This document shows positions 11,842 through 59,824 of a stretch of 64,000 bases of DNA, in pieces. Source of the DNA: Sulfodiicoccus acidiphilus. GTDB lineage: Archaea > Thermoproteota > Thermoprotei_A > Sulfolobales > Sulfolobaceae. The stretch spans positions 2,157,982 through 2,221,981 of the forward strand of contig NZ_AP018553.1 in NCBI RefSeq assembly GCF_003967175.1, given 5' to 3'. Both the position numbers and the translations under genes were made by a program. The notes below the pieces were generated by a model, which ran no database searches, was not told the DNA's origin, and saw only the letters and a list, made by a program, of their open reading frames with translations. Each line of letters begins with the position of its first letter. The stretch's first letter is position 1.

Positions 11842-12375
11842 ATTTCTAGACTTCGGTTCATCACTATACCAACCCCCTTGTCATGGAAGGTTTTCCTCCA
11901 CATTCTCATTACCACCGTCGTTCCGAACTCACATCCCAGACGGATAGTTAAATGGGCCAAAGAAAGATGGTCTGTCAATTTGGTTCCCAAGTATCTTTCA
12001 GTAAGGCTGTCGTCGAAGACAAACTGCTAAAGAGATAGAGAGTGGCGACCTCAATATACGAAATTGATCCATGAGTCCAGACCGAAGGACAGATAGAACC
12101 ACTAAAAGGTGAGCAAGGGGTACAGACTACAATTCGCTTAGAGAGGTAAGGGCTCTCTTTCTCTTATGATTTCCCCAGTCTATATTAGAAATCAAAACGG
12201 CAACATATCAACACATTTGAGGAACACCTGAAGCCGACTGTTCTTGACCTTTTTGGGAAATTGCTACGGATAATAACATAATATTATCCATAGAATCATA
12301 GACCCCATGATACTGTTCGCATTAGATCTTAAAGCAAATGTGCTGTCCTTTATTCCTACCTCTTCTTAATTAAAA

Positions 12376-12386
12376 CTTTAATTTAA
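12376..12386 (+). promoter_or_regulatory. TATA box of acs
   Basis: CTTTAATTTAA is centred 25-26 bases before the GTG at 12406, which fits a leaderless transcript starting at the initiation codon. Confidence 0.55.
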
Positions 12387-12405
12387 GTCTCTCCTTCTTT
12401 ACTCT

Positions 12406-14412
12406 GTGTCCGACACTATTTTGGGAGAACCTCTACCCTTCAATGAGAAAATTGTGTTGAAAAACTGGATCCACAGGAATGTGGACGAGAGGGAATACTT
12501 GGACTACCACAGGAAGGCCGTTAAAGAGTACCAGCAACACTGGGAGGTCATTGCTAGAGAATTGGAGTGGTTCAGCCCGTGGACGAAAGTAGTGGAGGAG
12601 ACGGATAAAGCACATGTTTTTAAGTGGTTTGTCGGAGGGACTACCAACATTTCCTACCTCGCCCTGGATAGACACGCAAAAACGTGGAGAAGGCACAAGC
12701 TAGCGTTCATCTGGGAGGGGGAACCGGTGGACGAACAGGGCAGACCTAAAGAGGTCAGGAAGTTCACCTATTACGACCTGTGGAGGGAAGTCAACAGAGT
12801 CGCCTACGCCATGAGGACGAAGTTGGGACTTAAGAGGGGCGACAGGATCGCGATTTACCTTCCAATGATACCAGAGCTCCCCATATTCATGTTAGCGGCG
12901 GCTAGACTGGGAGTGATATTCACTGTGATATTTAGCGGCTTTACGGCAGAGAACATAGCCAACAGGGTGAACGACCTCAACGCCAGCCTAATAGTGACTG
13001 CCGATGGGGTCTACAGAAGAGGAAAGATCCTCAGACTCAAGGAGATCGTGGACGAGTCGTTGAAGTTTACCCCGTCGGTCCAAAGGGTGGTAGTAGTAAG
13101 ACGTCTAGGTGGAGAGTTGTCCCTCACCCAGAGGGACGTAACGTTGGACGAACTGTTGAAAGGTGTTCCTCCCAATACCTATGTTGACCCCGAGAGAATG
13201 GAGAGCAACGAAGTCCTCTACGTGCTATACACCTCAGGCACCACCGGGAGACCGAAGGGCATGATCCACGACCACGGTGGGTACGCTACTCTGCTTCACG
13301 CTACTATGAAGTGGGTTTTCGACGCCAGGGACGACGATGTTTACTTCTGTACGGCGGACATAGGCTGGGTGACTGGGCACTCTTATATAGTATTCGGACC
13401 ACTCATAGAGGGACTCACCTCTGTCATGTACGAAGGGACGTTAGACTTCCCAGCCCCTGACAGGTGGTGGTCAATAGTCGAGAGATATGGCGTCACCATA
13501 CTTTACACCTCCCCCACGGCAGTCAGAACCTTGATGAAGTTCGGCGACGACTTGGTGAAGAAGCACGACCTGTCAACACTGAGGATAATACACTCGGTAG
13601 GTGAGCCCATAAATCCTTCGGCGTGGAGGTGGCTCTTCGAAGTCGTTGGGGGTAGTAGAGCCCCGGTGGGTTCAACTTGGTGGATGACAGAGACCGGAGG
13701 AATAATGATAAGTTACTTGCCTGGACTGATGTTGGTTCCCATGAAGCCGGGCTCAAACGGTTATCCTCTCCCAGGTATAGATGTGGACGTTTTAGACGAG
13801 TCTGGAAACCCTGTCAAGCCTGGGGAGAGAGGTTACCTCGTCATAAGGAACCCCTGGCCCGGGATGCCAGCAGCGCCCACTGGGGTGTGGGGAGATCATG
13901 AGAGGTACGTTAAGACTTACTGGTCCAAGTATAAGGACTTATTCTACGCTGGAGACTACGCTGTCAAGGACTCTGACGGTTACATATGGGTGGCCGGCAG
14001 GGCTGACGAGGTGATGAAAGTGTCGGGACATAGAATTGGGACGTATGAACTCGAGTCAGTCCTCGTTGCACACAGGGCAGTCTCGGAGGCCGCTGTAATA
14101 GGGGTACCAGACGAGGTCAAGGGTGAGGTTCCCATAGCTTACGTGGTTCTGAAAACAGGGAACCAGCCCAGCGAAGAGATGAGGAAGGAGTTGGTAGACT
14201 GGATAAGGAAGAATTACGGTCCAATAGCCACTCCGAGGGCCCTTTTCTTCGTCAATAAACTGCCAAAAACGAGGTCGGGGAAGATAATGCGGAGGTTGAT
14301 GAGGTCCGTAGCTACGAACTCACCTCTAGGGGACACTACAACCCTCGAGGACGCGAGCTCGGTGGAAGAAGTGAGGACAGCTTACGAGGAATTCGTGAAG
14401 TCAATAAGGTGA
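12406..14412 (+). CDS. acs: Acetyl-CoA synthetase-type acyl-CoA ligase
   Basis: This 668-residue AMP-forming ligase turns a short carboxylic acid, ATP and CoA into acyl-CoA. The ATP motif YTSGTTGRPKG is at residues ~275-285, the aryl/acyl motif WWMTETGG at ~425 and the C-terminal catalytic lysine in KTRSGKIMRR at ~620. Full length, GTG start 26 bases after a TATA box. In Sulfolobales, paralogues of this family activate acetate, propionate or 3-hydroxypropionate (the last in the 3-hydroxypropionate/4-hydroxybutyrate carbon cycle); sequence alone does not tell which. The symbol acs is used in the family sense. Confidence 0.85.
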   Translation: MSDTILGEPLPFNEKIVLKNWIHRNVDEREYLDYHRKAVKEYQQHWEVIARELEWFSPWTKVVEETDKAHVFKWFVGGTTNISYLALDRHAKTWRRHKLAFIWEGEPVDEQGRPKEVRKFTYYDLWREVNRVAYAMRTKLGLKRGDRIAIYLPMIPELPIFMLAAARLGVIFTVIFSGFTAENIANRVNDLNASLIVTADGVYRRGKILRLKEIVDESLKFTPSVQRVVVVRRLGGELSLTQRDVTLDELLKGVPPNTYVDPERMESNEVLYVLYTSGTTGRPKGMIHDHGGYATLLHATMKWVFDARDDDVYFCTADIGWVTGHSYIVFGPLIEGLTSVMYEGTLDFPAPDRWWSIVERYGVTILYTSPTAVRTLMKFGDDLVKKHDLSTLRIIHSVGEPINPSAWRWLFEVVGGSRAPVGSTWWMTETGGIMISYLPGLMLVPMKPGSNGYPLPGIDVDVLDESGNPVKPGERGYLVIRNPWPGMPAAPTGVWGDHERYVKTYWSKYKDLFYAGDYAVKDSDGYIWVAGRADEVMKVSGHRIGTYELESVLVAHRAVSEAAVIGVPDEVKGEVPIAYVVLKTGNQPSEEMRKELVDWIRKNYGPIATPRALFFVNKLPKTRSGKIMRRLMRSVATNSPLGDTTTLEDASSVEEVRTAYEEFVKSIR

Positions 14413-15053: not shown

Positions 15054-17966
15054 GTGAGGATAGTTGTCGATGGCCATACCCTAGACGTAGAGCAGGGGCC
15101 TAACCTCTTGGAGGTACTTCTGAGTGCAGGGTTCTACGTTCCCCACCTCTGCTATAACAAGTTCCTGGGTCCGTTGAAGACGTGCGATGCGTGCGTGGTA
15201 GAAGCTAACGGCAGGTTAGTGAGGAGTTGCTCTATACCTGTAGTAGAAGGAATGAAGATCGGCGTTAGATCCACAGAGTCCCTGAGGCTCAGAGCCTTGG
15301 ATCACTTGCTTCAACATCACCAACTCTATTGCACGGTGTGTGACAACAATCTGGACTGCGAACTCCACGAGGCATTTGTGAAGAGCCGCGTCACGAGGCA
15401 GAACTACGTAGACAGAGGTTACGAAGTGGACGATAGCAACCCCTTTTACATCTACGACCCGAATCAATGTATTCTATCGGGGAGGTGCGTTGAAGCATGC
15501 CAAGATGTCGTAGTGAACGAGGTAATAAAGATAGACTGGGATAAGAAAAGGGTTGTCTGGAGCGACGGTGCTCCTATTAACTTCTCGTCTTGCGTTTCTT
15601 GCGGCACCTGCGTTACGGTCTGCCCTGTGAACGCGCTTATGGAGAAGTCGATGTTAGGAAGGGCGGGATTCCTCACGGGAATGAAGGAAGAAGTGAAGAG
15701 GAAGTTGGTGACGTCGCTCAAGGGCGCCGAGTACACGTTCGAACCTATAATGTTCTTCAGCCAAGTCGACGCCAAGCTCAGGAACTCGATAGTTAAGAGA
15801 ACCAAGACCGTCTGTCCGTTCTGCGGGGTCGGGTGTTCATTCGAGGTGTGGACGAGAGGAAGAGAGATACTGAAGGTGGAACCTAAGCCTGAGTCTCCTG
15901 CCAACGGTGTGGCAACGTGTGTTAAGGGTAAGTTCGGACTGTCCTTCGTGAACAGCCGAGACAGGCTAACTAGACCGCTGATCAGGGACGGCGACCACTT
16001 CAGGGAGGCCAGCTGGCAGGAAGCAATATCCTTCATAGCTACAAAGCTCTCCCGTATAAAGGAGAAGTACGGACCAGATTCGATAGGCGTGATCGCCTCC
16101 TGCACCGGAACTAACGAGGAAGCTTATTTGGCGCAGAGGTTCGCCAGGGACGTGGTTGGGACCCACAACATCGACAACTGCGCTAGGTACTGTCAAGCTC
16201 CAGCCACCACTGGACTTTGGAGAACGGTTGGGTACGGTGGGGACTCAGGTTCCATCACGGACGTAGAGGAGGCTGATCTGGTTATCATAGTAGGCTCCAA
16301 CACCGCCGAGGCCCACCCAGTGTTAGCTGGAAGGATCAAGAGAGCAAAGAAGCTCAGAGGACAGAAGTTAATTGTCGTAGACGTCAGGAGACATGAGATG
16401 GCGGAGAGGGCAGACCTCTTCATCACGCCCAAAATAGGAACGGACCTAGTCCTGCTGAACGGTGTCATGAAGTACATTGTGGATCGGGGATGGCAGGACG
16501 AGAAGTTCATAAGGGAAAGGACGGTAGGTTACGACGCGTTCGTGGAGAGTTTGAAGCAGTACACTTTGGAGAACGTGGAGGCAGTGACTGGAGTTCCCAA
16601 GGAGACTGTGATTAAGGTGGCCACAATGATTCACGAGGCAAAGAGCGTGGTCGCGCTGTGGGCCATGGGAGTGACCCAACACCAGGACGGCAGTGAGACC
16701 TCCACTGCCATATCCAACTTGCTCCTACTCACTGGGAACTACGGAAGACCTAACACTGGAGGGTACCCACTGAGGGGACACGCCAACGTGCAGGGGGTGA
16801 GCGACTTCGGTGCTCTACCCACCATGATGCCTGGCTACCAACCTACGTCAGATGAAGAGGTGCTGACCAAATTCGAGAAAGCCTGGAACACTAAGCTCCC
16901 TCGATCGAAGGGCCTCACTAGCACCGAGATGGTTGACGCAGCTTTGCAAGGGAAGATGAAGGCGATGGTCGTTATGGGAGAGGACAAGCTCAACGCCGAC
17001 GCGGGTAGAGAGACTGTTAGGAGAGCGCTCTCGAACTTGGAACTGTTGGTGGTGACGGAGCTTTTTATGACGGAGACAGCGAAGCTGGCCACAGTAGTTC
17101 TACCGGCCGCTGCGAGTTTGGAGAAGGAAGGGACCTTCGTCAACACTGAGAGAAGGATACAAAGGCTCTACAAAGTCATGGAACCCTTGGGTGAAGCTAG
17201 GTCTGAGTTCCAGATATTACTCGACCTCGCCAAAGCCATGGGGAAGGAATTCCCTTACACGAATCCAGAGGACGTGATGGGAGAAGCGGCCCAACTCTGT
17301 CCAATATTCGCCGGAGTAGCTTACTCTAGGCTGGAGGGATTCAACAGCCTCCAGTGGCCAGTAAAACCAAGCGGGGAGGACAGTAGGTACTTGTACGCTG
17401 ACAAGTTCGCCTTTCCAGATGGAAAGGCCAGGTTCTATCGTACTACACACTACGAACCTAGGGTAGAAAACCCAACTTACGACCTAATGTTAGTGAACGG
17501 CAGGATGTTAGAGCACTTCCACTGGGCCAACCTCACCGGGAGGGTGAGTGGAATCAAGTACAAGGTGCCAGAGGTCTACTTGGAAGTCTCGCCTCAAGTA
17601 GCGGCAGAGAAGGGGCTTAAGGACGGAGACCTGGTGATGGTCAGTTCCTCCAACGGAAGGCTAAAAACTAGGGTGATGGTGACCAATAGGTTAGAGGGAA
17701 AGAAGGTGTTCCTTAGCCTTCACGACAGTAAGGAAATGAACGTCAACGAGCTGACAGACCCCATGACAAGGGACCCCACATCCAAGACACCTGCCTACAA
17801 GGAGACCCCCGTTTACGTAGAGAAACTTGAGGACTGTGTGTCCTGTGAGCCTCCACTCCCCAAGTGGAACCCGAGGTACGGAAAGAAGACTCCTCAGGTC
17901 GGGGTTAACGTGGAACTTAAATGGGGGAGACCAGACTACACGTACAGAGGTGAGTTAAACGAGTGA
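15054..17966 (+). CDS. fdhA: Formate dehydrogenase-like molybdopterin oxidoreductase, alpha subunit with N-terminal ferredoxin domains
   Basis: A 970-residue iron-sulfur molybdoenzyme. In order: a 2Fe-2S domain (Cys33, 44, 47, 59), a His/Cys3 cluster ([14 protein letters not shown]), two 4Fe-4S sites ([22 protein letters not shown]), then the molybdopterin core with its own 4Fe-4S site (CPFCGVGC). The metal ligand is Cys380 (NCARYCQAP), not selenocysteine. The residue after it is Gln381 where classical formate dehydrogenases have the catalytic His; the substrate Arg is kept ([11 protein letters not shown], Arg574). Followed by DUF1641 and fdhD genes, it should oxidise formate or a related small molecule, with electrons leaving through the fused clusters. 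Confidence 0.85.
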
Positions 17967-22809: not shown

Positions 22810-24189
22810 TCAAAATGCCGTCCATTGAGTTATGGGGATGGGTTGAAACTGGGTAGAGCCGGGTGGTTGCCACTCAAGGTCCAACAGGACGTTATTTCCT
22901 TGATTGGAGAATGTGAAGACTATAGTAAAGTTGGCGGGTGAAGTTAGATCGTAGCTAAAGTAGTACTGAGAGGAACTGGACGAACCAGCAACCACGAGTT
23001 TTCCATCTACATAGACCTTAACGTACTCTGGATCGTATTTGAGGGAATTAATGTTAGGCCCTCCGTTTATGTTATATGGATAGTCCAGCTTCAAACCCAC
23101 GTAAAATTCGGTTTGGCCCGAGGCAAGCGGACTTAGGTAGCCAGAGTAGCTAACTGTTATATTTTTACCACTGTAGCCAGAGATTACAACTGGAACCGTG
23201 CCACCCCACATTATCGGTATAGGTGACTGGAAATTCGTGGGTGAACCTGCCCCTGATCCCCAGTACAGGTCGTATATAGCTGGATCCATCATGTTTGGTA
23301 TAGCGGGCTGGAGGACGTTTGTTTGCCCTGGAGGTGGCACTGGTCCTCCGGTAGCTCCTGGAGGAACGGGGGTTGGACCAGGAGGCGTGAGTTGGTTAGT
23401 CGTAAATAGCATGGAGGAATTGTAATAGAGGTTATTCTCGGTCCACATGATGACCAGTTGTCCTACGTCTGGGAGGTAGCCTTGATACAGTTGATTAACG
23501 AGTTGTGAGGTTAGGGGTTGAGAGTAGAGTAAGGTCATCGCGATCCATCCATTGAACGAATACTGACTAGCTCCAGCTCCGTTAGAACTTCCCTCCAATC
23601 CGGTGATGTTTGTTTGAAAGTTTGAAGAGGCCGACACGCTTCCTATATCTAGATAGGATTTCCAACTAGCCAAGGGTAAATTGATGTTAGTGAATCCTCC
23701 GCTTACCAACGAACCGTTGAGGTAAAGGCCTGCGAAGCCCGTGGAAGGGTTGTAGACGCCAGCCAGAAAGTTTATAGACGATGGTACCTGGTTTGGGCTC
23801 ACCACAGTCAACCAGCTTCCATTACTTAGTTGAACAGTGAAGGCGAAAGTGTAATCGTTGGGATTGTTTTGAGGAGGGGGATTGTTTTGAGGAGGGGGAG
23901 GTGGATTTCCCTTCATTGGGCCCTGGACTAGTTGAAGGCTTCCACTTCCTGCGATCAGGGCAGCGTCTCCGATCCACGCTATATAACCTCCTTGTGGGGC
24001 ATACTTCGACAGGTATATGTTCTGATAGATTTCTACTAACCCCAACGTGTTCAACGTGACTGGATATATACTACCTCCTTGGTTTGTCGGATAGGCGTAA
24101 GTGGATATAGTTAATCCTTCGTGTCCAGCTGGAGGTACGACCTCAGTTAAAGTACCTGCCCAATCGTTATCGGACAGGTACCCGGTCAA
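22810..24189 (-). CDS. Secreted LamG-like adhesin, last gene of a pilin-like operon
   Basis: 459 residues from a TTG at 24189. Residues ~100-235 look like a LamG/concanavalin-type sheet domain (GLYLNGSLVSGGF, FNGWIAMTLLYSQPL). Proline-rich linkers follow (NPPPPPQNNPPPQNN; TPPGPTPVPPGATGGPVPPP), then a C-terminal sheet domain resembling PA14-type binding modules. Composition is Ser/Asn/Tyr/Gly-rich as for cell-surface proteins of acidophiles. There is no signal peptide at this start. The frame stays open to 24366 and encodes a Ser/Gly repeat linker there, directly after the stop of the upstream pilin-like gene, so the real protein may be fused to it by frameshifting. Confidence 0.65.
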   Translation of the reverse strand: MTGYLSDNDWAGTLTEVVPPAGHEGLTISTYAYPTNQGGSIYPVTLNTLGLVEIYQNIYLSKYAPQGGYIAWIGDAALIAGSGSLQLVQGPMKGNPPPPPQNNPPPQNNPNDYTFAFTVQLSNGSWLTVVSPNQVPSSINFLAGVYNPSTGFAGLYLNGSLVSGGFTNINLPLASWKSYLDIGSVSASSNFQTNITGLEGSSNGAGASQYSFNGWIAMTLLYSQPLTSQLVNQLYQGYLPDVGQLVIMWTENNLYYNSSMLFTTNQLTPPGPTPVPPGATGGPVPPPGQTNVLQPAIPNMMDPAIYDLYWGSGAGSPTNFQSPIPIMWGGTVPVVISGYSGKNITVSYSGYLSPLASGQTEFYVGLKLDYPYNINGGPNINSLKYDPEYVKVYVDGKLVVAGSSSSSQYYFSYDLTSPANFTIVFTFSNQGNNVLLDLEWQPPGSTQFQPIPITQWTAF

Positions 24190-24243
24190 GAAGGTGGAGA
24201 AAGGAGGAAATCCGACTGGAACGTTAGGAGGTGTTATACTTCC

Positions 24244-24325
24244 ACCTCCAGAATTCCCACTGCTAGCTCCGGAGGACCCACCGTTTCCACTACCTCCAGA
24301 ATTCCCACTGCTAGCTCCGGAGGAC
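24244..24325 (-). repeat. Two exact 34-bp direct repeats encoding a Ser/Gly linker
   Basis: Identical 34-mers at 24244-24277 and 24292-24325 (48-bp period), each containing CAGAATTCCCACTGCTAGC. On the minus strand they read as SSGASSGNSGG units in the adhesin's frame, upstream of its first usual start codon. Confidence 0.75.
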
Positions 24326-24355
24326 GAACTTACAGCTATTGTTATGGGAGATCCG

Positions 24356-24955
24356 TTAGCCAGGAATTACAAGCTCTCCAGACAAAGGATAGTAGTAGTA
24401 CTTCACAGCGTAGTAGGTAGTCCCCACTTTCGATAGGACCCAAACTACTAGTGAGTAGGTGTGTGGATTGACGTTTAGCTCCGACATTTCTGTGTAGTTC
24501 AAGGTAAGAGTCACAGTAGTGTGCGGCTTAATGAGATAGGCTTTCTCAGGAATCGTATTTAGGATTTGACCTGACAACCCATAGACGCGACTCACCAACA
24601 CAGGAGATAGACCCAAAGCGATCCGTTCAGTTGAGTTGAGTCCTAGTTGAGCCAGATTAAGCGTCTTACCCAAATTCATTCCAGGGGACTGCAACTGATC
24701 GTCTGGAATTAGTTGGAAAACAGCATATTCGTTGGAGGGTAAGTTGAACGTGACGGTAACGTAGAAGGACTGAGTCTGCTCAGAAAGGACCGCTGGACTA
24801 GCTACTAAGTTGACGTAGTAAGACTCGGCCTGCGCCATCTGCAACGCCGACGTATTTACCGACGTTACACTTAAGATGCTTCCCGAGAGAGCCACGGCTG
24901 AAATAGCCATGGTTGCTGTTACAATTATAATTATTAATGTGCTTATAGAGTTCAT
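24356..24955 (-). CDS. Pilin-like secreted protein with N-terminal membrane anchor
   Basis: A 199-residue protein. Residues 6-30 are one long hydrophobic helix (ISTLIIIIVTATMAISAVALSG) close to the N-terminus, as in archaeal type IV pilin-like proteins. The rest is a Ser/Thr/Tyr-rich beta domain with N-glycosylation sites (NTSA, NSTE, NYTE). Its ATG follows the stop of the upstream gene at once (TAG-ATG), with CAGGTGAG as ribosome site. The end of its frame (GELVIPG then TAA) runs into a second frame encoding the adhesin. Confidence 0.7.
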   Translation of the reverse strand: MNSISTLIIIIVTATMAISAVALSGSILSVTSVNTSALQMAQAESYYVNLVASPAVLSEQTQSFYVTVTFNLPSNEYAVFQLIPDDQLQSPGMNLGKTLNLAQLGLNSTERIALGLSPVLVSRVYGLSGQILNTIPEKAYLIKPHTTVTLTLNYTEMSELNVNPHTYSLVVWVLSKVGTTYYAVKYYYYPLSGELVIPG

Positions 24956-25567
24956 CTAGCTCACCTGGATTAAACTGGAAGAGTTGGATTCCGCGTACGT
25001 ACCTATCAGGTAATAGTTGGCTCCAACTTCTGCCACGACCCAGAATACAACATAGTCCCCCGGGGTAGAGAAATGAAATGTAATAGGAACGCCTTTAGAT
25101 TGAGGAGAACTGGGCGAGTCCACATACGCCTTCACATCTTCGGAGTTCAATTGACGCCCAGACACACTATATATAGAAGACAGAAGTTTATAAGCAGATT
25201 GTTCATTAACGATATTCTCCCCTTGAACGTAGACTGAGGAGGGAGGGAGAGAGGAGGAGGGAGAGAGGAACAGAAGGACATAGGGTGAAACGTTTGTGAC
25301 GCCAGCCACGAGGTAAACTTGAGATGGGTACTGCTGAGAGTAGAAATACGGGAGGACTGTGACGTTATAACCAGTCGACGAAGTGCCAACTATGGGCCCT
25401 GCGAGTAGCTCTAATTCGGCCGTGAGCTGATCTGCTTCGTGTTGCTCCTGGACTAAGGATTCTTGATATCCCACTACTGCAGAAGTGAGGCCGAACGCCA
25501 TCACACCTATTACTACTACCGCCACAAGTAGAATTATAGCCGTTATGGGTGCATCCACTGGGATCAC
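24956..25567 (-). CDS. Pilin-like secreted protein
   Basis: 203 residues from a GTG that overlaps the upstream gene's TAG by one base. Residues 5-32 form a hydrophobic helix (PITAIILLVAVVVIGVMAFGL), followed by a coiled stretch (ESLVQEQHEADQLTAELELL) and a beta-rich outer domain. The C-terminal VVAEVGANYYLIGTYAES resembles VLSKVGTTYYAVKYYYY of the next gene, so the two are probably duplicates. Likely part of a surface filament or anchor complex, with no assembly ATPase nearby. Confidence 0.7.
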   Translation of the reverse strand: MIPVDAPITAIILLVAVVVIGVMAFGLTSAVVGYQESLVQEQHEADQLTAELELLAGPIVGTSSTGYNVTVLPYFYSQQYPSQVYLVAGVTNVSPYVLLFLSPSSSLPPSSVYVQGENIVNEQSAYKLLSSIYSVSGRQLNSEDVKAYVDSPSSPQSKGVPITFHFSTPGDYVVFWVVAEVGANYYLIGTYAESNSSSLIQVS

Positions 25568-26592
25568 TAAGTGATTGTAGTTGTATTTGCCACAACGTAG
25601 GTATAGTATGTCGTATAACCGCTATAATCGACTTGGAAATAAATCGCCAGGAACACTGTGGCATTTGTATTGGTCTTTACTCCACTTGTTGTTAGTGTAA
25701 AGATTTGCGTAATAGTGATATTAGTCGCACTAGAGGAGCCTGCTGAGACTGATAAACCCAATGGGGACTCGTTTATATCAGAAAGGAGAGTCCCGTGGGT
25801 ATTGCCAGTAGATTCGTATAAGGCTAGGAACAGGACGTAGTCGTAGTTAGGAATTTCTATGCTTTGGTTGGAAAAGTCCACCACCTTGAGGTTCTTTAGG
25901 TTCACCGTGACATTCAACTGTGACCTAGAAACTTCGCTTACGGAGACCTGCGGAGTTGCCTTTATCGCGAACGCCAAGAGAGGAACACTGGATCTGACTA
26001 CGTAGGAAGACTCGCTTAACTGTGCCAGTTGCGTGACTTCGCCTGACAGGAACGTATCTGGGTTGACAATGAACTCGTTACCTCTGGAGGTGGTGAAGAG
26101 CACCGGACCTCCTCCTTGACCCAAGTCGAGAACTATCACGGGGGTTCCTGCTGAGAGCTGAACGCCGTAGACGTTTCCCCCCGCTAGTTGAGACTGGTAA
26201 ATCTTACCGTCCACGTAAATCACTGGGCCACCGCTCACCGAGTTTCCCACGTTAACAGGAGAGGGCTTTGCCTGTTGTCCGGTGTCGACCCAGAGCAGGT
26301 TAGTCACGTTAAGAGCGGGGTCGAGGTAGTAGTTGCCGGGAGACGTGAAAGCTAATACCAGGTAGTTATTCCCACCAGTCTGATTCAGATAGACCAGCAT
26401 CTGGTCCTTCACCTCGTCTTGTTCCAACTGTTTCGCCAAAGTGAGCCCCTGGGCCGACTGTTGAGCCTGTTCCTGAACCGAGGGCGTCGACAGTAGAAGG
26501 TAAGAGAAAGGAATAAGCACCCCGAGCATTACTATGAGCAGAATGAGAAATCCCACTACCTCAGACAAAGCGGCCTTAGATCTTCTCTTCAT
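25567..26592 (-). CDS. Archaeal type IV pilin-like protein, large
   Basis: A 341-residue protein led by a class III-type signal: basic KRRSK, then ALSEVVGFLILLIVMLGVLIPF. The SEVVG-hydrophobic pattern matches archaeal prepilins (SPVVG). The region after it (PSVQEQAQQSAQGLTLAKQLEQDEV) could form the pilus-core helix. The long remaining part is beta-rich and Asn/Ser/Thr-rich. It is first in a four-gene operon with two smaller pilin-like proteins and a LamG-like adhesin. No secretion ATPase or PilC homologue is in the window, so assembly would need shared machinery. Confidence 0.72.
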   Translation of the reverse strand: MKRRSKAALSEVVGFLILLIVMLGVLIPFSYLLLSTPSVQEQAQQSAQGLTLAKQLEQDEVKDQMLVYLNQTGGNNYLVLAFTSPGNYYLDPALNVTNLLWVDTGQQAKPSPVNVGNSVSGGPVIYVDGKIYQSQLAGGNVYGVQLSAGTPVIVLDLGQGGGPVLFTTSRGNEFIVNPDTFLSGEVTQLAQLSESSYVVRSSVPLLAFAIKATPQVSVSEVSRSQLNVTVNLKNLKVVDFSNQSIEIPNYDYVLFLALYESTGNTHGTLLSDINESPLGLSVSAGSSSATNITITQIFTLTTSGVKTNTNATVFLAIYFQVDYSGYTTYYTYVVANTTTIT

Positions 26593-26673
26593 AACTAGTT
26601 TTGGCTGGCCTGAACATAGCTTTAAACTTTCGCCACAATTTATCTCGTTAATTCCCCCTCCTACGGAAGGCGG

Positions 26674-28345
26674 GTGAGACGGACGGAGCTCGTGCTATTG
26701 GTACTAGCGGCCTCAGTGACTTTGCTTATCACCAGGAGGGTGAGGTACGACGTTGTCGGCCTAATCACTATGCTTTCCTTGATTCTCCTTGGACTGGTAA
26801 ATCCGGAAAGGGCCTTGGAGAACTTCGGTTCCACCTCGGTGCTACTGTTGGTGGCCCTTATGATAGTGAGCGGCTTCCTGAGCGAGTCAGGCCTGCTCGA
26901 GGTGTTAGGCGAGTTCGTCACCTCGCGCGTGAGGAGCGAAAAGGTGGCCGTAGGTTTGATACTTGTGGCCACCGCCTTCATCTCTGGGTTCGTGAGTGAC
27001 GTGGCCCTTACGCTGAGTTTCCTTCCATTAGTAGTTTACATATCGTCTAAGCTCGGAAGGGCTAGGTCCAAGTACCTCATCCCGCTTTCCTACTCCGCCA
27101 TCCTGGGGGTAGGTACACGATGATAGGAACCTCTCCTAACGTCGTGCTGGACCAGTTCTGGATAGAGAAGTTCCACTCCGGTCTACCACTCTTTCAGTTC
27201 GCCCCGATAGGCCTGGCGGAGATGCTCGCCGGTCTGACAGTCGTAGTACTGGTCGTGGTGAGGCTGATGCCTTCGCTGTCTTCCACCTCCTTGGAGGAGG
27301 TTAAGGTAGGGGAATACTTGGTGGAGGTTGGTGTAGACCGAGAAAGCGACTTAGTGGGGAAGAGCCTATCGCAATTGGAGAGGGAACTGGGAGTGAAGGT
27401 GGACCACGTGGTCGGGGTGCCCAGGCTCTTCAGGAGCTACGTCTCCTCTGGCGACGTGTTGGTGTTGAGAGTACCCCCAGAGAAGCTACCAATCATCACT
27501 TCCCTCAAGGGGGTGAGACTCTCGCCGTCGGTGGAGGTGCCTCAGGGAGTTCCCACTTTCGAGGTCCTTGTTCCTAATGGTTCTAGACTTGTCGGAAGGA
27601 CGGTGGGTGAGCTCAAGCTAGCTGACACGTACAGGGTTTACGTACTGGGCACTTCAGTGAGAGGCACGGTATACAGGCTCTCCAGCTCGTCCATACAGCC
27701 TGGAACAGTCCTACTAGTGGCAGGGAAGGAGGAGGATGTGGCACGGCTAGCCAACGACACTTCCTTGGTCCCCTGACCAAGAGGGCGCCGAAGGTCTTCG
27801 ATCGGAGGTCCGCCATGTCCGCCTTAATTGCCCTGGTTGCTGGAGTGACAATGAGTCTGGTTGGGTTAAACGTGGCCGTAGCCTTCCTGATCCCAGCGGC
27901 CGCGCTAATGATCCTAACTCCGAAAAGGAGGAGGGTCTACGAGTACGTGGACTGGCCGGTGATCTTCTTCGTAGGGTCGTACCTCTCCTTAGGTGACGCG
28001 GTAACGTCGTTAGCACCTCAACTGGCGGGGTTCACAGGGGGCTCACTCCTGATCCTCTTTCTTATGGGGCTCGCCCTGGCCAACGTCGTTAACAACGTCG
28101 CCGCCGCCGTTATCCTGGGACCAGTGGCCCTCACTTTCCAGGACCCACTCCTGGCCACTACGGTGCTGGCTATGGCGTGCTCCTCGACGTTCCTCCTCCC
28201 GTTCTCACACCAGGCAAACATAACAGTTTACAACGCTGCAGGCTACAGAGTAAGGGACTACCTCCTAGGAGGAGCAGTCCTCGTGGTCACGGTCACTGTT
28301 CTCACCTTCACTTACGTTGCCCTAGTTCACGGCTCTCTTATCTAG
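26674..28345 (+). pseudogene. SLC13/DASS-type permease with TrkA-C domains, frameshifted in two places
   Basis: Three consecutive frames make one permease. 26674-27123 holds the first helices; 27120-27776 begins with IGTSPNVVL, the family's substrate loop, and carries two TrkA-C/RCK_C-like regulatory domains; 27815-28345 holds the last helices with NNVAAAVILGP and SHQANITVYNAAGYR. The first break is at CTGGGGGTAGG (~27107) and the second at GTCCCCTGACC (~27770). Coding-like sequence without a start (LTKRAPKVFDRRSA) joins the second and third parts. Both breaks lie in short G or C runs, so sequence error or recent decay are both possible. Intact relatives import dicarboxylates, sulfate or arsenite. 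Confidence 0.8.
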
Positions 28346-28443: not shown

Positions 28444-29166
28444 TCAAGCTTTCTTGGCTCTGATGTACCTCACCTTTCCACCTTCCCTTACCTCCTGGAC
28501 GTACCCCAGCTTCACAAGCTTCCTGACCCTCCGGTAGGCAGTAGTCCGAGGCATTCCAGTGGCATCCATTATCTTGGATAAGGTGTCCGCACCCATCTCA
28601 ACAGCGTCTAAGACTGAGACATCTCGTGGATCCAAGTCCTCGTAGGGAGCGTTCTGCACTGGGGCCTTGCCGAAGAGTAGATAGGCCAAATAACCAGTAG
28701 CACCGAGACTGGCAGCTAGGGCCGGGACCAAGAAGAGCTCGAGGTTTAGGGGCGCTTCAGGCACCTGGTACAACACCTGCACATAGGAGCCGTAGAACTT
28801 GAGGAAGATACCACTTGAGTTGGCCGAGAAGCCCCTCAGGTCGCCGCTCACGTACTCTACGTTAGCACCTGGAGGGAGGATAAGTGTGATGTTGGCCTGA
28901 AAGGGTTCATTCAAGGTGAAGTTCGATGGCGGGAAAGGACCCCTATAGGTCAGGAAGTGAATTCCTGGGGCCTCGAAGGTTACTGTGTAGTTCCTAAACA
29001 CAAAAGTGGAGTTGGAAGTAATGGCTGTGGAGTTAGAAAAGGGTAGGTAGACTAGGGAGGAGTTGGTGACCAAGTTGAACTGTCCAGAGTAGCTCACGTA
29101 AACTGAGCTTGCGAAAGTCACAGAAGCAAAGAGGAACAGCGGTATCAACGCGACCTCGAGCCTCAT
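28444..29166 (-). CDS. Membrane-anchored winged-helix regulator with outer sensor domain
   Basis: 240 residues. Residues 1-19 form a signal/anchor, residues 20-140 an extracytoplasmic beta-rich domain with many N-glycosylation sites, residues ~145-167 a membrane helix (LFLVPALAASLGATGYLAYLLF), and residues 178-240 a winged HTH (VSVLDAVEMGADTLSKIMDATGMPRTTAYRRVRKLVKLGYV). The layout suggests a one-component system that senses something outside and binds DNA inside. No obvious target gene; the neighbour is the frameshifted permease, which is convergent. Confidence 0.7.
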   Translation of the reverse strand: MRLEVALIPLFLFASVTFASSVYVSYSGQFNLVTNSSLVYLPFSNSTAITSNSTFVFRNYTVTFEAPGIHFLTYRGPFPPSNFTLNEPFQANITLILPPGANVEYVSGDLRGFSANSSGIFLKFYGSYVQVLYQVPEAPLNLELFLVPALAASLGATGYLAYLLFGKAPVQNAPYEDLDPRDVSVLDAVEMGADTLSKIMDATGMPRTTAYRRVRKLVKLGYVQEVREGGKVRYIRAKKA

Positions 29167-57814: not shown

Positions 57815-58259
57815 CGCGTTAAAGATATGGGACGATCTTTTCAGATCCTTCAAGAGGGTCTTGAGAGAGGCCGAGAAGAAAATATCTGCAGTAGGCCTAA
57901 CGTGGACAGAATTCAGGATTCTATCACTCATCTGTGGCGAACCTAAGTCAATGGCTACCTTGGCCAACGAAACTATGCTGAGCCCAGCCGCTATCACCAG
58001 TCTGATCGATAAACTGGAATCCCAAGGTTACGCTAAGAGGATTAGGTGTGCTACAGACAGGCGATTAGTGAAGGTGGAGTTAACGGAAGAGGGTTTGGCA
58101 CTCCTGTCCAAGGCGAGGGAAATTCAAAGGGCATACATCGAGTCAATCTTACCCTCGCTCGCTCAAGAACTACAGGACGTACTTATGGAAATAAACGAGT
58201 GGGAGAGAAAGCGGCCCGCTCAACAATTACAAGAAAAAGGATTAAAGCTATCTGAGTGA
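57792..58259 (+). CDS. MarR family transcription regulator
   Basis: 155 residues with the MarR winged helix: [48 protein letters not shown] (in part), then the wing [16 protein letters not shown]. Dimer helices lie at both ends. It is co-transcribed with the MFS exporter and most likely represses that operon until a ligand binds. Start is GTG at 57792 or ATG at 57801. It ends overlapping the convergent SSS symporter by 12 bp. Confidence 0.88.
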
Positions 58260-59824
58260 GAGTAGCTCTTCGTTCTTCACTTTGTCACTCGGCCTCCACC
58301 CGGCTCCGTACGCTATCCCGCTTCCGACCCCTGTCACTAAGAGGTTTATGGCAAGGGCCAATAGCGCTATATATATCGGTCCCAGCGGAGTGTTGTAAAC
58401 TGACGAAATCAGAGGGCCGAACTTATTCGCGTAGAGTTCCATCAGAATGCCCGAAAGCACTCCTAGGCCCCAACCCGCCAGAGCGGACTTCGGTTCTAAC
58501 TTGTTGGTGTACAAGGGCAAGAATACTGCCGGTAAAGTTTGCGTAACTAGGACACCTCCAAGTAGCTGCAGTTGTATTGCGTATGTGGCTGGGACAACGA
58601 ATACGAAGGCCAGAGCAACGAACTTGAAGACAGTGGATATTATCTTAGCCAAGGCAGTCTCTGTCTTAGGTTTGAGTTTGGCGAACTCCCCTATTACGTT
58701 CCTCACGAACAAGTTCGCCACCGCTATTGCCATTATAGCTGCAGGTACCAGACCTCCAACAAATATTCCCAAGAATGCTATGCCTACAAACCAATCAGGC
58801 ATGGTGTAGGCTATTAGAGCGGGAACAGTTAAGGCCCCGTTGTGGAAGTGAAGGACCAGATCTAAGGCTCCGGGAACCGAGTAAACTAGGATCCCGAAGA
58901 GAACTATTATCGCGAGCCCTATCCCGTAAATAGGTAAGAGGGAAGTTCCAAGCTTCAGTTTATCTCTGTCCTGTGAGCTCAACGCACCGTTTATAGCGTG
59001 AGGATACAGGTAGAGCGCCAAGGAGCTTCCTATAGCGAGAGAAAGGAACGCTGCGGCCAATTTGGAGTTGGGTATGTCTAGGTAAGGTATGGCTCCTGAC
59101 GCTTTATTGAGTGCCTTATTGACAGTCGGTGAGAGTAGGCTGGCCTGCTGGAAAGCGTGAGCGAATCCACCAGTAGTCAATGGCACTACCACTATTACGA
59201 CAACCACAGTGAGGAGGATTAGTACATCCTTAAACACCCCGTGAGCACCGCTCCCCTCAGTCCACTAGTTATGGTGTACGCCGCTAGGACTACGAATGCT
59301 ATGATTAACGCTATCTCAGTTATCTCCTTTGCAGATGCTGCAAGGTTGAGGCCCAGGAGAAGAACTGTGAGCACGGCCTCTAGTCCAACTATCTGTAACG
59401 CTATGTAAGGCAATTCTGCCACTATTCCCGTTAGTGCGACAGCTACAGCGAGGCTCCTACTGTTCATCCTCTCTTTAATGAAGTCTGACGCTGTGACGTA
59501 TCCCCTATTACGGGAGACCGTCCACAACCTAGGCATGGTGAGAAGCGCTACACCGAAGGACGTGCCCACGTAAGGGACAGCGAACCAGTAAAGGGAGCCC
59601 TTCGCTAAGTAGCCAGATGGCACAGCTATGAAGGTATAAGCGGTGAATAGGTCAGCTCCTAGGAGGAACCATACCAACAGAGCTCCGAACCTCCTCCCAC
59701 CTAGCCCCCACTCGTTGAGAGAGCTCAGGTCCCCTCTCCTGAACCTAGAAGCGAGGAACCCCAATAGCACAAAAACTACGAAGAGTCCTACGAATACCCC
59801 CAACGTAACTGAGTCCACGTTCAC
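58248..59824 (-). pseudogene. SSS family sodium/solute symporter, split by one frameshift
   Basis: Two overlapping frames make one symporter of ~525 residues. 59824-59219 holds helices 1-6 ([27 protein letters not shown] in part, the SSS substrate region). 59237-58248 holds helices 7-13 with [16 protein letters not shown] and [21 protein letters not shown]. The junction reads CTCACGGGGTGTTTAAGG; one more G would join LTG to VFKDVLILL in frame. A slip in a G run, real or from sequencing, is the likely cause. The upstream DUF3311 gene overlaps by 4 bp. With the FAD oxidase next door, organic acid uptake is plausible. Confidence 0.8.

Follow-up and report, generated by a model that had tools for sequence, protein, structure and literature searches.

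An operon of Sulfodiicoccus acidiphilus encoding pilin-like proteins and a LamG/PA14-bearing modular pilin

Results

Three genes, the third a fusion

On the minus strand of the genome of Sulfodiicoccus acidiphilus (a single contig of 2,353,189 bp) lies an operon that, corrected for a single-base difference, reads as three genes: A, a class III prepilin; B, a pilin-like protein; and C, a fusion of a pilin module, a linker, a LamG region, and a PA14-like domain. We consider it reasonably probable that these are accessory pilins presenting lectin modules on a type IV filament, which would be built by Aap- or Ups-type machinery from other loci. The operon was studied within a window, the whole stretch of 64,000 nucleotides analyzed here (NZ_AP018553.1, positions 2,157,982 to 2,221,981), and the DNA around it has 47–55% G+C. 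A reading of the open reading frames (ORFs) of the window shows the operon to be real and its genes to be tightly packed, with a 1-nt overlap between A and B. A chance arrangement is ruled out by the synteny and homology seen in relatives. The features are as follows, in window coordinates.

26593–26660, minus strand: candidate operon promoter, CGAAAGTTTAAA, BRE/TATA-like, read by eye
25567–26592, minus strand: gene A, 341 aa, predicted prepilin with class III motif ...RRSKA|ALSEVVGFLILLIVMLGVLIPF
24956–25567, minus strand: gene B, 203 aa, GTG start, pilin-like, with an uncharged ArlG-like N-terminus
24356–24955, minus strand: pilin module of gene C, 199 aa, a paralogue of B; its TAA stop results from a single-base difference
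24355–24358, minus strand: frameshift junction, TAAC versus TAC in the sister species; a +1 shift separates C from its lectin tail
24229–24354, minus strand: Gly/Ser-rich linker, holding two exact 34-nt repeats
22810–24366, minus strand: LamG/PA14-bearing C-terminal part of C, 518 open codons with neither a start nor a signal
23497–23862, minus strand: LamG (Laminin_G_3, concanavalin A-like) region, located by aligning the window sequence with the Pfam match of the sister protein
22858–23202, minus strand: C-terminal beta domain, PA14/CBM-like, its limits transferred by alignment from the sister protein's AlphaFold model

The candidate promoter CGAAAGTTTAAA is situated ∼30 nt before the ATG of A, within the gap to a divergent permease gene. 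The exact repeats of the linker occupy 24244–24277 and 24292–24325, 48 nt apart.

The initial annotation described a compact operon ending in a separate adhesin, a large Ser/Pro-rich protein at 22810–24189 with a TTG start. The operon and its lectin module hold, but the adhesin is the C-terminus of C: its frame is open from 24366, is +1 relative to C, carries neither its own start codon nor an export signal, and is fused to C in relatives. In the sister species (JAFMDM010000040.1, contig G001:C111), C and the LamG part form one continuous ORF of 682 aa, and the LamG homologue also lies inside a single ORF in genomes G006 (733 aa), G012 (793 aa), and G003 (822 aa); the homologue in G019 is incomplete, at the edge of a 4-kb contig in N-containing sequence. 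Because C and LamG are a single ORF in the sister species and these relatives, the operon is read as three genes with a fusion as the third, and an arrangement of four separate proteins is ruled out. Alignment of the junction with the sister sequence (CCTGGCTAACGG versus CCTGGCTACGG) reveals one extra base, which creates the TAA stop of C. Purifying selection relative to the sister species is similar in all four parts of the operon (dN of 0.34, 0.23, 0.28, and 0.31, with synonymous sites near or at saturation); the LamG half, free of internal stops, equals the pilin half in constraint (dN 0.31 vs 0.28).

An error in the sequence, or else a mutation or slippage of very recent date, is the simplest and the probable explanation for the split of C, because similar single-base shifts break neighbouring genes. 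The adjacent permease gene (26674–28345) is divided over three ORFs in the window, and comparison with the sister species places single-base deletions near 27.12 kb (in a G run) and 27.77 kb (in a C run), the exact base being read from the alignment. By reading, the frame of the Aap-type platform gene, which lies beside a pilus ATPase, changes at a short C run, so that the N-terminal part is encoded in a different frame from the rest; in S. acidiphilus, UpsX and the UpsA/B-like pilins likewise seem shifted or fused. Joining of C and LamG in vivo by programmed +1 frameshifting, or switching off of the gene by phase variation, would agree with the intactness and constraint of both halves and with the broken pilin genes that other loci of the family carry, but we regard either as highly improbable, given that the sister gene is unshifted, that the TAAC site has no slippery run, and that the permease, twice, and by reading also the platform gene of Aap type are hit by single-base shifts. 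Excess breakage, as phase variation would have it, is rejected, since genes of the pilin modules are broken about as often as flanking genes (∼6 of 113 vs ∼6 of 140; in the module count, two of six flags were artefacts in which one ORF had been matched twice, and two further cases were added). The breaks noted in Sulfolobus acidocaldarius, Metallosphaera sedula, M. cuprina, G005, and G026 fall at unrelated sites.

Two classes of pilin-like protein

A hydrophobic N-terminal helix is present in each of A, B, and C, so the pilin-type anchors initially assigned to all three proteins stand to that extent; the class III cleavage motif is confined to A. The signal tested was K/R followed by A/G/S directly before the hydrophobic N-terminal helix, and by this simple motif test the charged motif is found in A (in the sister species it reads RKA|LSEVIGFLILL) and in neither B nor C. 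The distinction extends to the families. Among the A-like (A'), p540, p480, and p155 sequences, 44 of 45 carry the motif, compared with 19 of 240 flanking ORFs; for the B/C families the count is 2 of 33, and all 33 have an N-terminal hydrophobic segment. As B and C are devoid of the charged −2 residue expected for PibD, they may stay anchored in the membrane.

B and C are homologous to each other (hhalign E 3.7e-22; C of the window also matches the B profile with E 7.5e-8), and AlphaFold predicts for both a pilin-like fold in which a long N-terminal helix is followed by a beta-rich head. The model of the C pilin module consists of a long helix and a beta-sandwich (pLDDT ∼82 over residues 1–190), that of B of a 45-residue helix and then a beta-sandwich (pLDDT 74), and the N-terminal helix spans 43–45 residues across the B and C models. 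The B profile matches the solved crenarchaeal pilins 6w8x and 8fjs, although weakly (E ∼0.002). A Foldseek search with the B model returned generic beta-sandwiches and no type IV pilin among the 50 matches listed, and a search of solved structures with the C alignment gave no match. An assignment of B as an ArlG homologue was considered and not adopted: the profile match is 22 residues long, with a probability of 15%.

A LamG/PA14 module carried on two types of pilin

The LamG- and PA14-like domains initially assigned to the C-terminal region are borne out in the sister species, the latter by structural match only. With 28.1 bits, the intact sister protein scores above the Pfam cut-off for Laminin_G_3 (27.6), and its C-terminal domain resembles PA14-containing GH31 enzymes, CBM35, and two PA14 lectins, Cea1A and KpFlo2; the PA14 match is purely structural, from a moderate-confidence model (E 8e-4). 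The LamG region is modelled at low confidence (pLDDT ∼30).

The module is rare, being found in S. acidiphilus (G000), the sister species (G001), G006, G003, G012, and G019. It is borne by a p540-type pilin in G006 and G003, whereas in G012, G019, and Sulfodiicoccus its carrier is a B/C-type pilin, as would be expected for exchangeable modules. In the sister species and three further complete relatives, a pilin module is fused to it via a linker, the architecture of a modular pilin. The common locus of the family encodes a ∼450-aa pilin whose C-terminal domain showed no homology to the LamG/PA14 module; this domain is itself only weakly LamG-like, with a match in one of the members scanned (E 4.5e-4).

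A pilin family across the Sulfolobaceae

A search of 398 Thermoproteota with the B profile identified strong homologues in most Sulfolobaceae genomes and, outside the family, one marginal match (G056, E 6e-4). The initial annotation had proposed synteny in relatives as a check. Related pilin genes are present in all 11 Sulfolobaceae genera sampled, with five to seven pilin-like genes of varied sizes per locus in relatives. The genes fall into two modules. In module I, the common locus, the ∼450-aa pilin, which bears a C-terminal module of its own, is divergent from a set of genes of ∼190, 540, 480, and 155 aa; B is homologous to the ∼190-aa protein (saci_1682). Module II consists of a ∼176-aa B-like gene and an A-like gene of 516–730 aa, and the N-terminal region of A matches these larger second genes, for example saci_1681. 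The modules adjoin in S. acidocaldarius and are separate in others; G014 has module II only, within the region fetched, and in Sulfodiicoccus only the window operon was detected by these pilin profiles. The loci that contain the related genes usually encode neither an ATPase nor a platform, and no such gene belongs to the core that the relatives conserve. A viral origin was discarded, as no relatives were found in viral contigs.

The S. acidocaldarius cluster saci_1676–1686 comprises seven pilin-like genes in two modules and four other genes. Its tags were assigned in this analysis by counting off, in order, the 11 genes enclosed by the primers of a published deletion strain once these had been mapped (see below).

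saci_1680: 176-aa B-like gene (B'), by gene order
saci_1681: 601-aa A-like gene (A'), by gene order
saci_1682: B homologue, by gene order
saci_1683: 460-aa pilin, homologue of the C-type pilin module with a different C-terminal module, by gene order
saci_1684–1686: p540, p480, and p155, by gene order

The window operon and this cluster have in common A (homologue saci_1681), B (homologues saci_1682 and saci_1680), and the pilin module of C (homologue saci_1683); the C-terminal module of saci_1683 differs from that of C. Searches of the literature with the locus tags led to a paper on the deletion strain, a BarR paper, and a table, and to no description of the pilin locus, although the pilin family is conserved across a well-studied archaeal family; no paper in the literature searched joins LamG, pilin, archaea, and adhesin.

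Assembly machinery and known filaments

The S. acidiphilus genome has an archaellum locus, an Aap-type locus with a 600-aa ATPase, and a Ups-type locus, and it encodes the prepilin peptidase PibD. Around the operon, the ORF list of the window holds no ATPase or platform gene, in agreement with the initial annotation, and the operon likewise proved distinct from the archaellum, Ups, and Aap systems, as had been claimed: an ATPase and a platform gene do not occur in the same locus, and comparison of A, B, and C with the genome's own archaellum, Aap, and Ups subunits gave best BLAST E values of at least 0.3, confined to the N-terminal helix region. As there is no detectable homology to these subunits, the refutation set by the initial annotation, homology of all its proteins to known Aap/Ups subunits, is not borne out.

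T4P-type ATPases occur in 31 of the 31 family genomes, and ArlG in 16. Because B-type genes also occur in genomes devoid of ArlG, the pilin locus is independent of the archaellum; two non-archaellar T4P ATPases (∼580 and ∼480 aa) are present in checked genomes of this kind, such as G003, G010, and G017. Many archaeal pilins stand alone, and it has been proposed that ATPase/TadC pairs serve different pilin sets (Makarova et al., PMC4858521), which fits borrowed machinery for A, B, and C.

The closest functional parallel is PilC of the type 4 pili of Streptococcus sanguinis, a pilin with a concanavalin A-like lectin module that has been modelled into a minor-pilin tip complex (PMC9934059). As in PilC and PilB, an N-terminal pilin module is joined to a bulky module of adhesive type (PMC9934059, PMC8179133). 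Unlike them, C has an archaeal pilin scaffold with no sequence homology detected, carries a second, PA14-like module, is devoid of a charged class III leader, and belongs to a gene set (A-B-C) that lies apart from the assembly machine. Modular pilins have been surveyed by the signature IPR012902 and described for bacteria (PMC8179133); in contrast to that earlier bacterial catalogue, the present genes offer an archaeal case in which lectin-type modules appear to be exchanged between pilin scaffolds.

Resemblance to other systems in these cells is partial. Aap likewise involves PibD-processed pilins in the same cells, but an ATPase and a platform are encoded among its genes. Beyond the N-terminal helix, no similarity was detected between A, B, and C and the S. 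acidiphilus pilin of Aap type. B and C share with ArlG an uncharged N-terminus and one transmembrane helix, although the profile match of B to ArlG is weak and B-type genes extend to genomes without ArlG. Threads (Saci_0406) use a signal peptidase I signal and a donor-strand subunit, and the class III motif of A argues against such an identity.

Discussion

A model for the role of A, B, and C

The PilC parallel, together with the proposal that ATPase/TadC pairs serve different pilin sets (PMC4858521), leads us to propose an accessory pilin complex that presents lectin modules. In this model, A would be inserted by Sec and cleaved by PibD. C would be a modular pilin whose Gly/Ser linker carries the LamG and PA14-like lectin-type module, and A, B, and the C fusion would form an accessory (minor) pilin complex. 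Assembly could be carried out by the Aap-type (∼580–600 aa) or the Ups-type (∼480 aa) ATPase with its platform, so that a type IV filament would display the lectin modules at its tip or base, where they might mediate adhesion to glycans or S-layer glycoproteins. Incorporation into a filament, the machine used, the tip position, and glycan binding or the ligand are the parts that we infer. Several observations weigh against this model: the uncharged N-termini of B and C, the low-confidence model of the LamG region and the moderate one behind the PA14 match, and the generic beta-sandwiches returned by Foldseek for B. In addition, no direct link to a specific ATPase was found, the hyperarchaellation of the S. 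acidocaldarius deletion described below involves non-pilin genes as well, and the C–LamG gene is broken in the S. acidiphilus genome as sequenced.

Alternatively, the A-type pilins might polymerize into a thin pilus of their own through a shared ATPase, with the C fusion as tip adhesin. The five to seven pilin-like genes of the relatives' loci, several of which have canonical class III motifs, and the independence of the locus from the archaellum are consistent with such a filament. We nonetheless judge it unlikely: the passages of PMC11607397 on the filaments of S. acidocaldarius list only four (archaella, Aap, Ups, and threads), pilins of 480–730 aa would be unusually large for a major subunit, and the locus lacks an ATPase or platform dedicated to it. 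Accessory or tip pilins that use machinery encoded elsewhere are favoured over a separate filament by the distribution across the family, the non-archaellar pilus ATPases of the genomes checked, and the PilC parallel.

Of comparably low probability is a non-polymerizing complex anchored in the membrane or S-layer and stator-like, as ArlF/ArlG, in which uncleaved N-terminal helices would hold B and C while the lectin modules reach through the S-layer. The N-termini of B and C are uncharged like that of ArlG (MASEVISESIM...), and their families almost never have the class III motif; against this stand the canonical cleavage motifs of A and most of its partners, and an ArlG profile match limited to 22 residues. 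Bindosome-like scavenging of glycans, with surface sugar-binding pilin-like proteins serving nutrient uptake, would account for the lectin-type modules on C but is very improbable, as no transporter or bas-type ATPase or platform genes are linked to the operon and lectin modules are not solute-binding proteins.

A deletion of the S. acidocaldarius cluster

A strain that lacks homologues of the accessory pilins favoured here already exists. MW2106, a deletion of saci_1676–1686, is hyperarchaellated and has been used to prepare archaella and threads (PMC11607397). The published primers map to 2709–2738 and 15703–15732 of the S. acidocaldarius region L095, and these positions imply that the deletion removes both pilin modules together with the four genes upstream, of which one encodes an S9 peptidase. 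The passages of that paper on the strain describe neither the pilins nor their function, nor do they attribute the effect to any particular one of the 11 genes; they name archaella and threads in the preparation and leave Aap unmentioned, which is not evidence that Aap is absent (PMC11607397).

It is conceivable, if unlikely, that the Sulfolobaceae possess an undescribed, conserved type IV pilin system without an ATPase of its own, comprising two pilin classes and lectin-bearing modular pilins. Such a system would sense contact with surfaces or mediate it and would hold the archaellum in check, such that its loss leads to hyperarchaellation. Because the hyperarchaellated deletion is at hand, a role of the cluster in adhesion and in switching from sticking to swimming or back is open to immediate test in a tractable model organism.

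The hyperarchaellation itself belongs to the deletion of 11 genes, the four non-pilin genes included. Hyperarchaellated cells have also been reported after deletion of aapF (PMC6396743).

Split and apparently split genes

26674-28345, plus strand: CitMHS/TrkA_C permease gene, adjoining the pilin operon
58248-59824, minus strand: two overlapping ORFs of 329 and 201 aa
L095 (S. acidocaldarius DSM 639) 12155-13839: pilin gene in the cluster (560 aa), which our own count makes saci_1684
L100 10841-12639; L101 5317-7424 and 10307-11044 (pilus loci of the same genome as the window): platform gene, UpsX and UpsA/B-like pilins

The permease gene is broken into three ORFs and, relative to the sister Sulfodiicoccus species, has single-base deletions in a G run near 27.12 kb and a C run near 27.77 kb, which suggests that sequence errors account for its split. 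By eye, the 329- and 201-aa ORFs, for which Pfam returned no match, look like halves of one transporter and possibly mark one more frameshift. A single-base shift also splits the S. acidocaldarius pilin ORF, as judged against a relative (L063). In the genome of the window, an apparent frameshift affects the platform gene adjoining the Aap-type ATPase. UpsX and the UpsA/B-like pilins there have the look of shifted or fused genes.

Accompanying genes

L045 7451-8959, L046 10617-12122, L047 11122-12636 (relatives): ~500-aa secreted protein
L103 9592-10524, L064 4490-5350, L095 3419-4297: ~290-310-aa protein of unknown function
28444-29166, minus strand: winged-helix protein; sister counterpart at L009 1360-2151

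In three relatives, the LamG pilin is followed by the secreted protein, which has a C-terminal membrane segment and, in one copy, a near-threshold PEGA domain; at the sister locus the LamG pilin lacks this protein after it. In three genera, the ~290-310-aa protein is encoded no more than a few kb from the pilin modules. The winged-helix protein near the operon, retained in the sister species, combines a signal-like N-terminal region and one membrane segment with a C-terminal winged-helix domain and is possibly a membrane-bound regulator.
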